Positions 4,887-12,900 of a stretch of DNA of 21,078 nt are shown here, piece by piece. The first letter of the stretch is position 1. The number at the start of each line of letters is the position of its first letter. The translations under genes and the position numbers were made by a program. The DNA lies in IMG/VR virus record IMGVR_UViG_3300043437_000372, positions 1 to 21,078 of that record; one strand, written 5' to 3'. The DNA is from a virus. The notes under the pieces were generated by a model. That model saw only the letters and a list, made by a program, of their open reading frames with translations, was not told the origin of the DNA and ran no database searches.

Positions 4887-4915
4887 GGTGTAAAACACCA
4901 CGTGTCCAACGTCAA
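4887..4915 (-). promoter_or_regulatory. Promoter with GGTGTNNNACACC palindrome (copy 1)
   Basis: On the - strand a TTGACG -35 (4915-4910) is followed after exactly 10 nt by the perfect palindrome GGTGT-TTT-ACACC (4899-4887). The expected -10 hexamer at 17-nt spacing is TACACC, inside the palindrome. The -35 overlaps the TGA stop of the small membrane protein gene. The start codon of the next gene is 12 nt further, implying a very short leader. Confidence 0.72.
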
Positions 4916-9317: not shown

Positions 9318-10025
9318 GGACACGAATTGCATCAGGGCATATCGGAGGTCCGGCCCGGTGTAGGACGGGCTTTTCATCAGCTTCCCGTCCTGATTCTTGA
9401 TGCGGTAGCACCGGTCACCGGTCACGCCTGCGACCTTGGTTTCGGTCCACTTTAGACTCTCGATCTTTAGCTGGTTGTCATGCACCTCGGGCAGCGTCCA
9501 GAGCTTGGTGTCATTGCTGGCGCACACAGCGCCCAGAGCGTCCCAGAATTGCACCGAGTAGTACGTAGACAGCGCGATCAGATCCAGCAGCACCGCCTTG
9601 GCATCAGAGGCCTGCAGCTTGTCCGTATCCTCCACCCCCTTGATGAACAGGTCGACACGTCTCTCAAGGGCAAGCACGTTCATGTCGGTTGACCTCGAGA
9701 ACGAGATGTTGTCGAGCGTGACGCCGTAGGCGTTAAGAAGACCTAGAATCGTGAAAGCCACGTCACCGATATCATCGGCGACATTTTCTCGGATGTTGTC
9801 GATCTTTTTGGTGATGCCCTCCTCGAACAGTGCTGGAACCGAACTGAGCAGTTCGTTGTAGGTGGCGGCGTGGATAATGTACTCGTCATACCACTCGGAC
9901 TTTACGAACCCCAACTGCTTCTTGCAGAACTCGGGATCGCGTTGCGTTGGCGTCTTCGTAACGGGCTGGGCTGCGACATCGCGCTGCCAGTTGTAGACGC
10001 GCTCTTGGTAGGATCTGATTTTCAT
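9309..10025 (-). CDS. MazG-like NTP pyrophosphohydrolase
   Basis: This 238-aa protein has the acidic helices of the all-alpha MazG/phage dUTPase-like superfamily: GFVKSEWYDEYI (about 39-50, Glu 44 and Glu 48) and IRENVADDIGDVAFTILGLLNAYG (about 78-101, with Glu 80, Asp 84, Asp 85 and Asp 88 as likely Mg ligands). Family members hydrolyse (d)NTPs to NMP and pyrophosphate; phage copies may adjust nucleotide pools or (p)ppGpp. The substrate is unknown. The C-terminal region (about 165-238) is an extra domain that I do not recognise. The ATG overlaps the DnaB stop (ATGA), and its end overlaps promoter copy 3. Confidence 0.78.
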   Translation of the reverse strand: MKIRSYQERVYNWQRDVAAQPVTKTPTQRDPEFCKKQLGFVKSEWYDEYIIHAATYNELLSSVPALFEEGITKKIDNIRENVADDIGDVAFTILGLLNAYGVTLDNISFSRSTDMNVLALERRVDLFIKGVEDTDKLQASDAKAVLLDLIALSTYYSVQFWDALGAVCASNDTKLWTLPEVHDNQLKIESLKWTETKVAGVTGDRCYRIKNQDGKLMKSPSYTGPDLRYALMQFVSLT

Positions 10026-11344
10026 TCGTCGAATAGTGATGCTGGGTCGAATCGTGTGAGCTCTGGCCTGAAGCTGAACGGGATGTCCACCCCTGCCTGA
10101 CCCGCCCGTTGCTTGGCGATGAACAGGTTGATTCTCCTCGGTCCAGATTGGGTAGCCTCTGAGTCTTGTTGCTCAGCTGGGTAGAGCATTCCGACAAGGT
10201 CGGCATCTTGCTCAATGGCACCTGACTCGCGCAGATCGCTGAGCCGGGGTTTTCGGTTTCCATCACGCTCAATGGCGCGGTTCAGCTGGGCCAGAAGCAC
10301 GATCGGTATCTTGAGCTCTTTGGCCAGCAGCTTCATGTTTCGGCTGATCGCATCGATCTGTTCGCGCCTCTCCTTGCCCTCAGAGGCCGTGATCAACTGC
10401 AGGTAGTCGATCGCAAGTACCTTCAATCCTGAAGATCGAACCCAGCGACGCGCCTTGGCAGCGATGCTCTGAGCGGTCTGGTTGGGCTTGTCGTTGACCA
10501 TGATCTTGTGACGGGCAAGCCGACTTGTAGCTGTCGTTAGCTTCCTGAGCTCGCCCTCGTTCGGCTGGTTGCGCTCGTCGTACCGCCCGACATCCACCTG
10601 AGACTCGATTGCCAGCATTCGCATGCCCACCTCCTCGGCGCTCATCTCGAGGCTCACGAACCCCGTCTGCACGCCGCTTGAACAGAGTGAGGTCAAAAGA
10701 CTCAAGGTGAACGCCGTCTTGCCGGCACCCGGGCGACCAGCAACCACGAACACCTGACCCGGACGCAGTCCTCCCCTGAGGATTCTGTCCATGAAGGTCC
10801 ACCCAGTTGGGATGGCGTCGCTCTTGCCGGCACAACGCTCCTGAATGAGGTCGATGGCCGAAGTGGCTATCTGCTTGGCGGTGAAGTCGCTGTCAACGGA
10901 GTGCTCATTCCTGATCCCCATCAGTTTGGCTTCAAAACTGTCCAGCACCATGTCCACCTTGGCAGCCCCGGAATAGGCCGTGTTGATGGCCTCTTGCGAG
11001 ATCTCAATGAGCTTTCTGGCCCGCTGTTTGTCCCGTGCAATGTCCAGATAGTAGGGGAGGTTTGATGCGCTCGGAACAGCGTCCATCGCCTCAGACACGA
11101 ACGCAATCCCGCCTACACGGTTGAAAGAGTCGCCCTTGAGCCGGTTCGCGATCGTGACCATATCGATCGGAATGCGGTCGTCCCGCATCTTGATGATGAT
11201 CTCCCACAGGTCATGGCATCGAACATCGTAGAACCAGTCCGCCTTGATGCCTCCGTTTATCGCGTCATCAATGGCGTTGTTGTTCAGCAAACAGCACCCT
11301 ATCACGCCAAGTTCGGCTTCTTGTGAGAACGGAGGCTCTCTCAC
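10022..11344 (-). CDS. dnaB: Replicative DNA helicase, DnaB-like
   Basis: A 440-aa DnaB-family helicase that unwinds DNA at the phage replication fork as a hexamer. The N-terminal DnaB domain is at about 1-105 (EAELGVIGCCLL and ADWFYDVRCHDLWEII). The RecA-like core has Walker A GRPGAGKT at 203-210, FVSLEMS (about 229-235), Walker B IDYLQL at about 312-317, LLAQLNR, and ARL-type RLSDLRESGAIEQDAD. The C-terminal part ends AKQRAGQAG...FRPELTRF. Length is normal for phage DnaB. The start is a GTG overlapping the stop of the preceding gene (GTGA). It lies right after a DnaD-like gene, the usual arrangement for loader plus helicase. Confidence 0.96.
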   Translation of the reverse strand: MREPPFSQEAELGVIGCCLLNNNAIDDAINGGIKADWFYDVRCHDLWEIIIKMRDDRIPIDMVTIANRLKGDSFNRVGGIAFVSEAMDAVPSASNLPYYLDIARDKQRARKLIEISQEAINTAYSGAAKVDMVLDSFEAKLMGIRNEHSVDSDFTAKQIATSAIDLIQERCAGKSDAIPTGWTFMDRILRGGLRPGQVFVVAGRPGAGKTAFTLSLLTSLCSSGVQTGFVSLEMSAEEVGMRMLAIESQVDVGRYDERNQPNEGELRKLTTATSRLARHKIMVNDKPNQTAQSIAAKARRWVRSSGLKVLAIDYLQLITASEGKERREQIDAISRNMKLLAKELKIPIVLLAQLNRAIERDGNRKPRLSDLRESGAIEQDADLVGMLYPAEQQDSEATQSGPRRINLFIAKQRAGQAGVDIPFSFRPELTRFDPASLFDE

Positions 11345-12213
11345 TTGGTGTTTCCTCCAAGCTGAGCCTTGAGTTGGAAGTACCGCTCCTTCATGGCTGC
11401 AAACTCCTGCTTCTGCGCCTCGGTCACCAGATCTCCGAACATCGCCTCATGCCGAGGGTTCGCTACGTGCGCAGAAAGCCGCTCCACGAGGTTTTTAAGC
11501 TCATCTGGGGTGGAGACAGCGGACTTGGCATCAGGACGCGCCATTGGGGCTGTAGCGCCCCAGTTGTTCATCAACGCCAGCGGAGTCAGGATTGCGTCAC
11601 GATAGATCCGCCGATAGCCAGCGACGTGAGCATCGATCATCTCCTTGGTCAGGCTGGGCTCGACCTTCTTGATTCCGGCCAGAGCAACCGCCACCCGCTT
11701 CCACTCGCCCTCGGTCATGCGGCTGGTGTCCGATCCGCAAGCCTTGGCCAGATGGTCCGCAAGCTCGTTCCTTGGGCGCTCTTTCGCGGCATCGCCGCTC
11801 TCTTTCTTATGGTCTTCTTCTATAGTATTCTTAGGTGACGGCTTTCCAGTTACTGGAAACCCGCACTGGTTTTCCGCGCATAAAGGGGTGTTTTGCGCGG
11901 ATTTCCAGTCAGCGGTGGGAGTGTCGGTAAAGGTCCAAATTCGATTTGAAAACCGTCCGTCAGCAGCCGTGTCTGTTTCCTCAAGGGATGCGTACCCAAG
12001 CTCTTTGAGCTCATTGAACACGGCCGCGATGGCGTCACGCCCCTCGCAGCAATGCTCAGTTACCCACGCTTTGGTAACGACCCATTCGTCCATATTGGAC
12101 AGGATCATGCACAGGAGCCCCTTGGCGCGAAGAGACATCTTCTTCCGAAGAAGTTCGTTTGGGATGATGGTGAATCCGCCCTGCTGTCGCTTTACTCGGA
12201 TGATGGTTTTCAT
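11341..12213 (-). CDS. DnaD-like replication protein with winged helix
   Basis: This 290-aa protein starts with a winged-helix/HTH_36-type domain (about 10-75: FTIIPNELLRKKMSLRAKGLLCMILSN, then AWVTEHCCEGRDAIAAVFNELKELGYA), as found in phage replication initiators. A Ser/Pro/Lys-rich linker follows (about 95-150), then a helical C-terminal part (about 155-230) ending in GATAPM. Its place immediately before dnaB suggests origin binding or helicase loading (inference from context). The ATG has no Shine-Dalgarno and lies 9 nt after a terminator-like hairpin, so expression is probably controlled by the leader upstream. Confidence 0.82.
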   Translation of the reverse strand: MKTIIRVKRQQGGFTIIPNELLRKKMSLRAKGLLCMILSNMDEWVVTKAWVTEHCCEGRDAIAAVFNELKELGYASLEETDTAADGRFSNRIWTFTDTPTADWKSAQNTPLCAENQCGFPVTGKPSPKNTIEEDHKKESGDAAKERPRNELADHLAKACGSDTSRMTEGEWKRVAVALAGIKKVEPSLTKEMIDAHVAGYRRIYRDAILTPLALMNNWGATAPMARPDAKSAVSTPDELKNLVERLSAHVANPRHEAMFGDLVTEAQKQEFAAMKERYFQLKAQLGGNTK

Positions 12214-12222
12214 CGGTCGTTG

Positions 12223-12246
12223 AAAAAGCCCGTTTCAGTGAACGGG
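12223..12246 (-). terminator. Terminator-like hairpin before the replication genes
   Basis: On the - strand a CCCGTT/AACGGG stem (arms 12246-12241 and 12234-12229, loop 6 nt) is followed by C and five T. It ends 9 nt before the DnaD-like ATG at 12213. This placement fits an attenuator rather than the end of an operon. Confidence 0.65.
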
Positions 12247-12354
12247 AAAAAAGAACCCCACGTAGTCCGAGGGGGAGAGATCGCTGGGGCGGATCAGCGA
12301 AACCTCGGAAAACGTGGGGCAAAAAACTGTGATTGAACCGCGCCTATTGAACAC
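12235..12354 (-). CDS. Possible 39-codon leader ORF
   Basis: A GTG at 12354 is preceded by AGGAG (12367-12363) at 8-nt spacing and opens a 39-codon frame that crosses the long hairpin. It stops at TGA 12237-12235, which lies exactly in the loop of the terminator-like hairpin. The peptide has no recognisable domain (MFNRRGSITVFCPTF, then a Ser/Pro-rich middle and GFFFPVH). The value is in its position: translation through it would disrupt both hairpins. It may equally be a chance frame. Confidence 0.35.
   Translation of the reverse strand: MFNRRGSITVFCPTFSEVSLIRPSDLSPSDYVGFFFPVH
12247..12319 (-). terminator. Long three-part hairpin with U-tract
   Basis: Nested stems on the - strand: CCCCACGT/ACGTGGGG (12319-12312 with 12263-12256, 8 bp), TCCGAGG/CCTCGGA (12309-12303 with 12272-12266, 7 bp) and TCGCTG/CAGCGA (12300-12295 with 12286-12281, 6 bp). 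Small internal loops separate them and the terminal loop is 8 nt. TTC and six T follow (12255-12247). This could be a terminator, or the body of a structured leader RNA or small RNA. Confidence 0.6.
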
Positions 12355-12377
12355 CCTCGGCTCTCCTCTCACCGATC

Positions 12378-12434
12378 GCCGAAGACACTGACCTTGTAAT
12401 ACACCGCAGACAACCTGTCAACAGTGTCTTCGGC
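12378..12434. repeat. 13-bp inverted repeat framing promoter copy 4
   Basis: Perfect arms GCCGAAGACACTG (12378-12390) and CAGTGTCTTCGGC (12422-12434) enclose 31 nt that contain the whole promoter copy 4. The right arm begins at the base after the -35, inside the last codons of the RuvC-like gene. A read-through transcript from the upstream operon would fold this into a 13-bp stem; a transcript from the enclosed promoter could not. Confidence 0.75.
12393..12421 (-). promoter_or_regulatory. Promoter copy 4 (imperfect palindrome)
   Basis: On the - strand TTGACA (12421-12416), 10 nt, then GGTGT-ATT-ACAAG (12405-12393). The register is the same as in copies 1-3, but the last two bases of the palindrome are changed. 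The -10 at 17-nt spacing is TACAAG. The TGA stop of the RuvC-like gene lies inside the -35. It would start a transcript near 12384 that runs through the leader toward the DnaD-like gene. Confidence 0.7.
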
Positions 12435-12900
12435 CGTACTCCCAGATCAGGAGGGAGTCGGATGTCTTGAGCGTGATCGGAATGCCCGGAAAGAGCTCCT
12501 GAGCACGGCCCTTGAGCTTGTTCTTCCACTCTGTCTTGGAGAGTCCCTTGGAGTTTCCAAGCCCGAGTTCCTTCTGCCACGTCTGCGGAGGGACGCGCTC
12601 GATGCGGTATCCGAGAGCCATGGCGGCACCAAGGACGATACCGAAATTTTCAAACATCACTGCAGCCATTGAGCCGGGTATTCCCTTCCCGCCACCCATG
12701 GGCACAAACCGTGGAAGCTGCTCGATGTGAAGAACAGTGTATCCCTTCAGCACTAGATCGCCCAAGAGCTTGACCGTATCAGTCGGCTCCTGAGGCATTG
12801 GCACTGCGGTCATCGGTCCATCGCCGTTTTTCCATGCAATGCCTCCTGAGGCACCCGGGTCGATGGCAATGTGCCAGTAGTCACTTGGTGGGTTGATCAT
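12418..12900 (-). CDS. RuvC-like Holliday junction resolvase
   Basis: This 160-aa RNase-H-fold protein shows the RuvC pattern. First strand AIDPGASGGIAW has the first acidic residue Asp 14. VLHIEQLP has Glu 60. The GYRIERVPPQTWQKELGL block (about 97-114) is typical, and TSDSLLIWEYG near the C-terminus gives the final Asp 148. Such enzymes cut branched DNA, resolving recombination or packaging intermediates with Mg ions. The length is normal for phage RuvC-like nucleases. It overlaps the preceding Zn-protein gene by 20 nt, and its own stop lies in promoter copy 4. Confidence 0.85.
   Translation of the reverse strand: MINPPSDYWHIAIDPGASGGIAWKNGDGPMTAVPMPQEPTDTVKLLGDLVLKGYTVLHIEQLPRFVPMGGGKGIPGSMAAVMFENFGIVLGAAMALGYRIERVPPQTWQKELGLGNSKGLSKTEWKNKLKGRAQELFPGIPITLKTSDSLLIWEYGRRHC

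Follow-up and report, generated by a model that had tools for sequence, protein, structure and literature searches.

A conserved structured leader RNA, probably an RNA gate on phage replication, ahead of a dnaD-dnaB operon

The locus, its promoter and the predicted transcript

The DNA analysed here, termed the window, is the whole 21,078-nucleotide stretch of the IMG/VR virus record IMGVR_UViG_3300043437_000372. On its minus strand, a leader separates a gene for a RuvC-like Holliday junction resolvase from a gene for a DnaD-like protein, whose end is overlapped by a gene for a DnaB-like replicative helicase; these identities were assigned from PHROGs and Pfam (Table 1). The hairpins, T-runs and promoter listed in a preliminary description of the window were all found at the positions given there. 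The leader promoter follows right after the RuvC-like stop codon (12418), and its TTGAC is unchanged in the 13 distinct versions of the leader that we collected. It overlaps a palindrome of the GGTGTnnnACACC type, which is imperfect in the window and complete in the related contigs L006, L017, L165 and L193.

The same promoter type also occurs elsewhere in the window and in its relatives, ahead of several genes, as TTGAC(A)-N10/11-GGTGTnnnACACC with the palindrome placed over the -10 region. Such sites lie on the minus strand of the window near 4899, 8859, 9301, 12405 and 14999, and also in L009, L011, L016, L165, L193 and L034, and the palindrome is probably the operator of a phage regulator. 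At several copies the leader extends just 0 to 15 nt, approximately, ahead of the ATG. A long structured leader is found at the dnaD copy only, the other copies (e.g. 9301, 8859 and 4899) having a short leader and then the ATG.

Two further features of this region were set aside. First, a perfect 13-bp inverted repeat that flanks the dnaD promoter (12378-12390 / 12422-12434) was excluded from the conserved element, as it is degraded in L003 and L005 and missing from L006 and L016. Second, the missing Shine-Dalgarno sequence ahead of dnaD was dropped as a special sign, since most ATG-start genes of this phage, on the minus strand, are without one; several genes that start with GTG or TTG (DnaB at 11344, 5627 and 5898) have a strong Shine-Dalgarno sequence. 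Nucleotide skew gave no clear switch at the leader of the kind that marks a replication origin.

Table 1. Features of the leader and its flanking genes in the window.
Feature	Position	Strand	Details
RuvC-like Holliday junction resolvase, upstream gene	12418-12900	-	PHROG 1770, E 7e-13
Promoter	12393-12421	-	TTGACA 12421-12416, 17-nt spacer, weak -10 TACAAG 12398-12393
Hairpin P1, 7-10 bp, near the predicted RNA 5' end	12352-12387	-	91.5% of cells paired
P1 loop, GATCGGTGAGAGGAGA, 16 nt	12362-12377	-	core GATCG(G/A)TGAGAG(G/A)A in 13/13 versions
U-tract just 5' of P2	12321-12326	-	mostly conserved; 74% identity vs 57% in linker
P2/T1, predicted three-part terminator hairpin	12255-12320	-	11 pairs with two-sided changes in P2a, P2b and P2c; z = -7.7
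P2 bulge, UCUCUCCC, between P2c and P2b	12273-12280	-	invariant; 100% identity, 13 sequences
T1 U-run	12247-12252	-	T-run after hairpin in 13/13 sequences
Optional hairpin T2 and five T	12223-12246	-	CCCGTT-6-AACGGG (12246-12229), then C and TTTTT, 9 nt ahead of the ATG at 12213
DnaD-like replication initiation / helicase-loader protein, first gene 3' of leader	11341-12213	-	PHROG 4707, E 3.5e-13; PHROG 186 (DnaD-like helicase loader), E 3e-5
DnaB-like replicative helicase, overlaps dnaD end	10022-11344	-	PHROG 19, E 2.2e-96; Pfam DnaB_C, E 1.9e-72

The conserved RNA comprises about 142 nt (12387-12246, minus strand), namely, the 5' hairpin P1, a variable linker and the three-part hairpin P2/T1. 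P2 stacks three helices, contains an internal loop (2 x 8) and is followed by the U-run. As the preliminary description had it, T1 is a nested hairpin with stems of 8, 7 and 6 bp (CCCCACGT/ACGTGGGG, TCCGAGG/CCTCGGA and TCGCTG/CAGCGA), which runs into TTC and six T. Its fold, at -38.3 kcal/mol, was matched by none of 200 shuffles, and in 13 of the 13 versions T1 has the make-up of an intrinsic terminator, that is, a G+C-rich stem directly followed by a U-run. The number of terminator-like sites in the window is ordinary (22 vs 18.4 +/- 4.4 in shuffles, no excess), and therefore it is conservation, and not the presence of hairpins, that constitutes the evidence in what follows.

Relatives, covariation and conservation of the leader

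Relatives were gathered from IMG/VR with three proteins (DnaD-like, RuvC-like and the helicase) and a segment of the leader as queries. This yielded about 20 related contigs of uncultured phages and, in addition, a Verrucomicrobia genome bin, with the 13 leader versions among them, every one of which lies between the RuvC-like and the DnaD-like gene, directly ahead of dnaD, and follows the common plan of P1, linker, P2 and U-run. When whole records of up to 70 kb were searched, the RNA was present as a single copy per record, in the same place each time. Searches of IMG/VR with the RuvC-like protein, a DnaD alignment and a relaxed DNA pattern returned no more distant version, and an RNA-model search of 388 genomes of the bin's phylum found no match beyond that bin. 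In the GenBank phage collection there was no close relative, the only blastn match being one of 51 bases in DnaB, and DnaB identity to GenBank phages is at best about 34% among the records listed.

The leader version of the genome bin lies in a prophage-like stretch. In this contig (L203, 6440-6490) the phage genes end near the 3' end of a tRNA (acgggttcgaatcccgtcgcccgctcca) and are followed by chromosomal genes (ParA, PhoH-like and P-type ATPase), likely a prophage attachment junction; ARAGORN made no call for the partial tRNA in L203. Judging from the resemblance of this one binned contig to a prophage junction, the phage group is probably temperate, with Verrucomicrobia as host.

The preliminary description had proposed beforehand that compensatory changes be sought in relatives, and they are present in the T1 stems, together with a U-run in 13 of 13 versions. 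Across the 13 sequences, 93.7% of cells hold standard pairs, and twelve of the 33 pairs have changed on both sides and still pair, values reached in none of 500 shuffles. Cells with two-sided changes amount to 26, against 10 +/- 2.9 in shuffles. Sliding the partners by 1 to 3 columns lowers pairing from 94% to 38-49%. In P2a/P2b, L005 and L006 differ from the window on both sides at eight positions that pair (columns 80, 82, 83, 85, 87, 88, 89 and 90, of which column 85 has no partner in the window itself), and further two-sided changes occur at 75-143, at 99-113 (L017), and at 100-112 and 89-129 in other relatives. P1 is more weakly supported, by one two-sided pair (CG to UA, columns 4-33) and five pairs with one-sided changes, several of which keep pairing. 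RNAalifold, on its own, predicts the same structure. The leader is thus a conserved structured RNA, with compensatory base changes in its stems.

P1, with its almost invariant loop, was missing from the preliminary description; we regard it as an essential part of the leader RNA. The P2 bulge is identical in all versions (mean pairwise identity 100%), and the P1 loop and the P2c arms follow at 94% and 91%; the other arms reach 76-77% and the linker 57%, while the ends of the flanking genes, at 84% and 77%, are below both the P1 loop and the P2 bulge. On this pattern, the two exposed segments and the pairing of the stems both appear to be under selection. In all versions counted, the core GAGAG(G/A) of the P1 loop can pair with UCUCUC of the P2 bulge over 6 bp (five Watson-Crick pairs and one G-U), the sole variable position being a G to A change that turns G-U into A-U. 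Such complementarity is reached in 39% of composition-matched shuffles, and therefore it is no evidence by itself; we offer a kissing contact between P1 loop and P2 bulge as a possible hypothesis.

Separately from this RNA, a recurring sequence, AGCGATCTCTCCCC(G/A)C...TTTTTT, mostly followed by GAGGAGGT and ATGGC and sometimes located at contig ends, was noticed in L079, L085, L087, L095, L096, L103, L120 and L147. It has 14 letters in common with the P2 bulge region, either by chance or as a signal of other phages, and its contigs were rejected as carriers of the leader RNA.

Within the group, L005 resembles the window group on its promoter side and the L006 group in its P2 hairpin (compared with L006 and L011), a mosaic that suggests recombination within the leader.

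The second hairpin behaved differently from T1. The preliminary description had proposed it as a second terminator, and T2 with its five T does exist in the window next to the ATG. However, it is present in just 8 of the 13 versions (window, L003, L006, L008, L011, L016, L033 and L034) and absent from L005, L017, L165, L166 and L193. Among the versions that have it, five (L003, L006, L008, L016 and L033) carry a broken T-run. Its fold is modest (z = -2.3), and its changes include C-G to U-A in L006 and L033 and mismatches in L011 and L034. From the alignment, we conclude that T2 is no conserved terminator.

A proposed gate on dnaD-dnaB and its alternatives

In L005 about 15 nt separate the T1 stem from the dnaD start, in the other versions roughly 20-45 nt, and no promoter-like sequence common to the relatives lies in this interval. 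Since T1 is so close to dnaD, leaving no room for a promoter in L005, dnaD-dnaB transcripts must cross T1, whether they come from the leader promoter or from upstream. Taken with the conservation of loop and bulge, this crossing speaks for regulated read-through, that is, attenuation, rather than for a plain terminator. A terminator that simply ended the upstream operon and regulated nothing would account for the stable hairpin and its U-run close behind the RuvC-like gene; yet a promoter sits between that gene and T1, and such a terminator needs neither an invariant bulge nor a 5' hairpin with a near-invariant loop, which makes this explanation very unlikely.

We therefore favour, with moderate confidence, a cis-acting role in which the leader would be a conserved attenuator heading the dnaD-dnaB operon. 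First, transcription from the TTGACA promoter would produce P1, the linker and the hairpin P2/T1. Second, many RNA polymerases would by default halt at the U-run of T1, setting free an RNA of about 140 nt, so that dnaD and dnaB would be made solely by polymerases that pass T1. Third, read-through would be set by whatever recognises the P1 loop and the P2 bulge, be it a protein, a ligand or the loop-bulge contact. The short RNA, once released, may in addition act in trans. Both termination at T1 in the cell and regulated read-through are what we infer from these features, and T1 could instead be a leaky terminator without regulation.

As for how read-through might be achieved, no conserved antiterminator pairing that excludes the terminator was found, the folds of RNA cut before the 3' arm of P2 differing between relatives. 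A strand-exchange antiterminator between a P1 arm and P2b was considered and rejected, since it is possible in the window group and not kept in L005, L006 and L165.

Translation of the leader offers another route to control, whereby a ribosome on a short leader ORF across P2 would prevent T1 and hand over to dnaD. Most leaders do have some open frame across P2, and its stop overlaps the dnaD start in L006, L017, L034, L165, L166 and L193, but there is no common start codon or frame, and so no conserved ORF. Depending on the relative, reading frames from the common (G/A)TG of the P1 loop stop after 9, 18, 26 or at least 45 codons; the linker and the P2c loop have indels that are not multiples of three; and L165 and L193 have lost the AGGAG-like segment, for which reason the reading of GAGAGGAG as a Shine-Dalgarno sequence was also rejected. 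We thus consider attenuation by a leader peptide to have very little probability.

The suggestion of the preliminary description that the leader is an attenuator or a terminated small RNA is supported by the compensatory changes in T1 and its kept U-run; judged by sequence, the RNA may act in cis or in trans. An RNA acting primarily in trans, with e.g. phage or host mRNAs as targets and the P1 loop or the C-rich bulge as the contacting segment, and with dnaD expressed by incidental read-through, would suit the leader's own promoter, compact structure, two exposed near-invariant segments, U-rich 3' end and internal U-tract. It would suit less well an RNA that always lies directly ahead of dnaD, in one copy per record and nowhere else in the records searched, and the dnaD transcript would still need to cross T1. 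On balance, a primarily trans-acting RNA seems to us unlikely, though it deserves consideration.

Comparison with known RNA families and phage systems

At gathering score, Rfam 15 has no family in the window, in agreement with the failure of the preliminary description to recognise one, and a search of the leader against Rfam returned anti-hemB alone, far below threshold (17.3 bits vs a cut-off of 49.5). C4 antisense RNA (RF01695) had no match in the window or in the leader, the leader being searched with E up to 5. Because there is no Rfam match, and because the main text of a 2010 survey of 104 candidate structured RNAs mentions neither DnaB nor helicase, our reading of the sequence is that the leader is a new RNA family that does a job of a known kind.

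The job is known in that terminators and antitermination guard phage early genes. In lambda, the terminator tR1, with nutR, stands at the entry to the cII-O-P replication region and must be passed; the leader has a predicted terminator in the corresponding place, at the entry to phage replication genes, but its RNA is larger and more structured, and no nut element was identified in it. C4 antisense RNA and the cI RNA of phage P4 are small phage RNAs transcribed from the head of an operon, the latter acting on premature termination ahead of replication genes. The leader shares the position of such RNAs at an operon start, but is without an Rfam match, and its internal complementarity is just 5-6 bp.

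In phage HK022, putL and putR, each about 70 nt with two stem-loops, make RNA polymerase pass later terminators (PMC9378689). Like the leader, they have a pair of stem-loops close behind a phage early promoter and ahead of early genes guarded by terminators; they differ in length, in that the second hairpin of the leader has itself a U-run, and in that its two hairpins are separated by a linker of about 30-40 nt. Processive antitermination of the put kind would require an action of the leader RNA on RNA polymerase.

In the Salmonella prophage Gifsy-1, one promoter yields both IsrK, a short terminated RNA, and a longer read-through mRNA that feeds orf45/anrP and, indirectly, AntQ (PMC4825925). 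The likeness consists in a phage RNA with its own promoter and terminator and with short and read-through forms, which in the leader are predicted from sequence. However, the target genes of IsrK are not replication genes, and the leader is without an Rfam match and without a conserved upstream ORF. A dual RNA of this kind, in which the short terminated form would act on the read-through form of the same transcript, is suggested by the same layout of one promoter, terminator and read-through mRNA (PMC4825925) and by the complementarity of P1 loop and P2 bulge over 5-6 bp. This complementarity is short and not beyond chance, and the leader lacks an Rfam match except for the weak one to anti-hemB, and hence we hold a dual RNA to be quite improbable.

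A more far-reaching form of the attenuator is that P1 loop and bulged terminator hairpin form one tertiary unit, a new family of RNA switch that would sense a ligand, a phage protein or RNA polymerase and decide on the transcription of dnaD-dnaB-type genes. We put this forward tentatively, as an unlikely reading; if true, it would mean control of the start of phage DNA replication at the level of RNA. More generally, the leader probably gates phage replication at the RNA level, and Rfam contains no conserved RNA that shows covariation, has two near-invariant single-stranded elements and would gate a dnaD-dnaB operon. If T1 is regulated, the leader would provide a compact and directly testable control point for the onset of phage replication.
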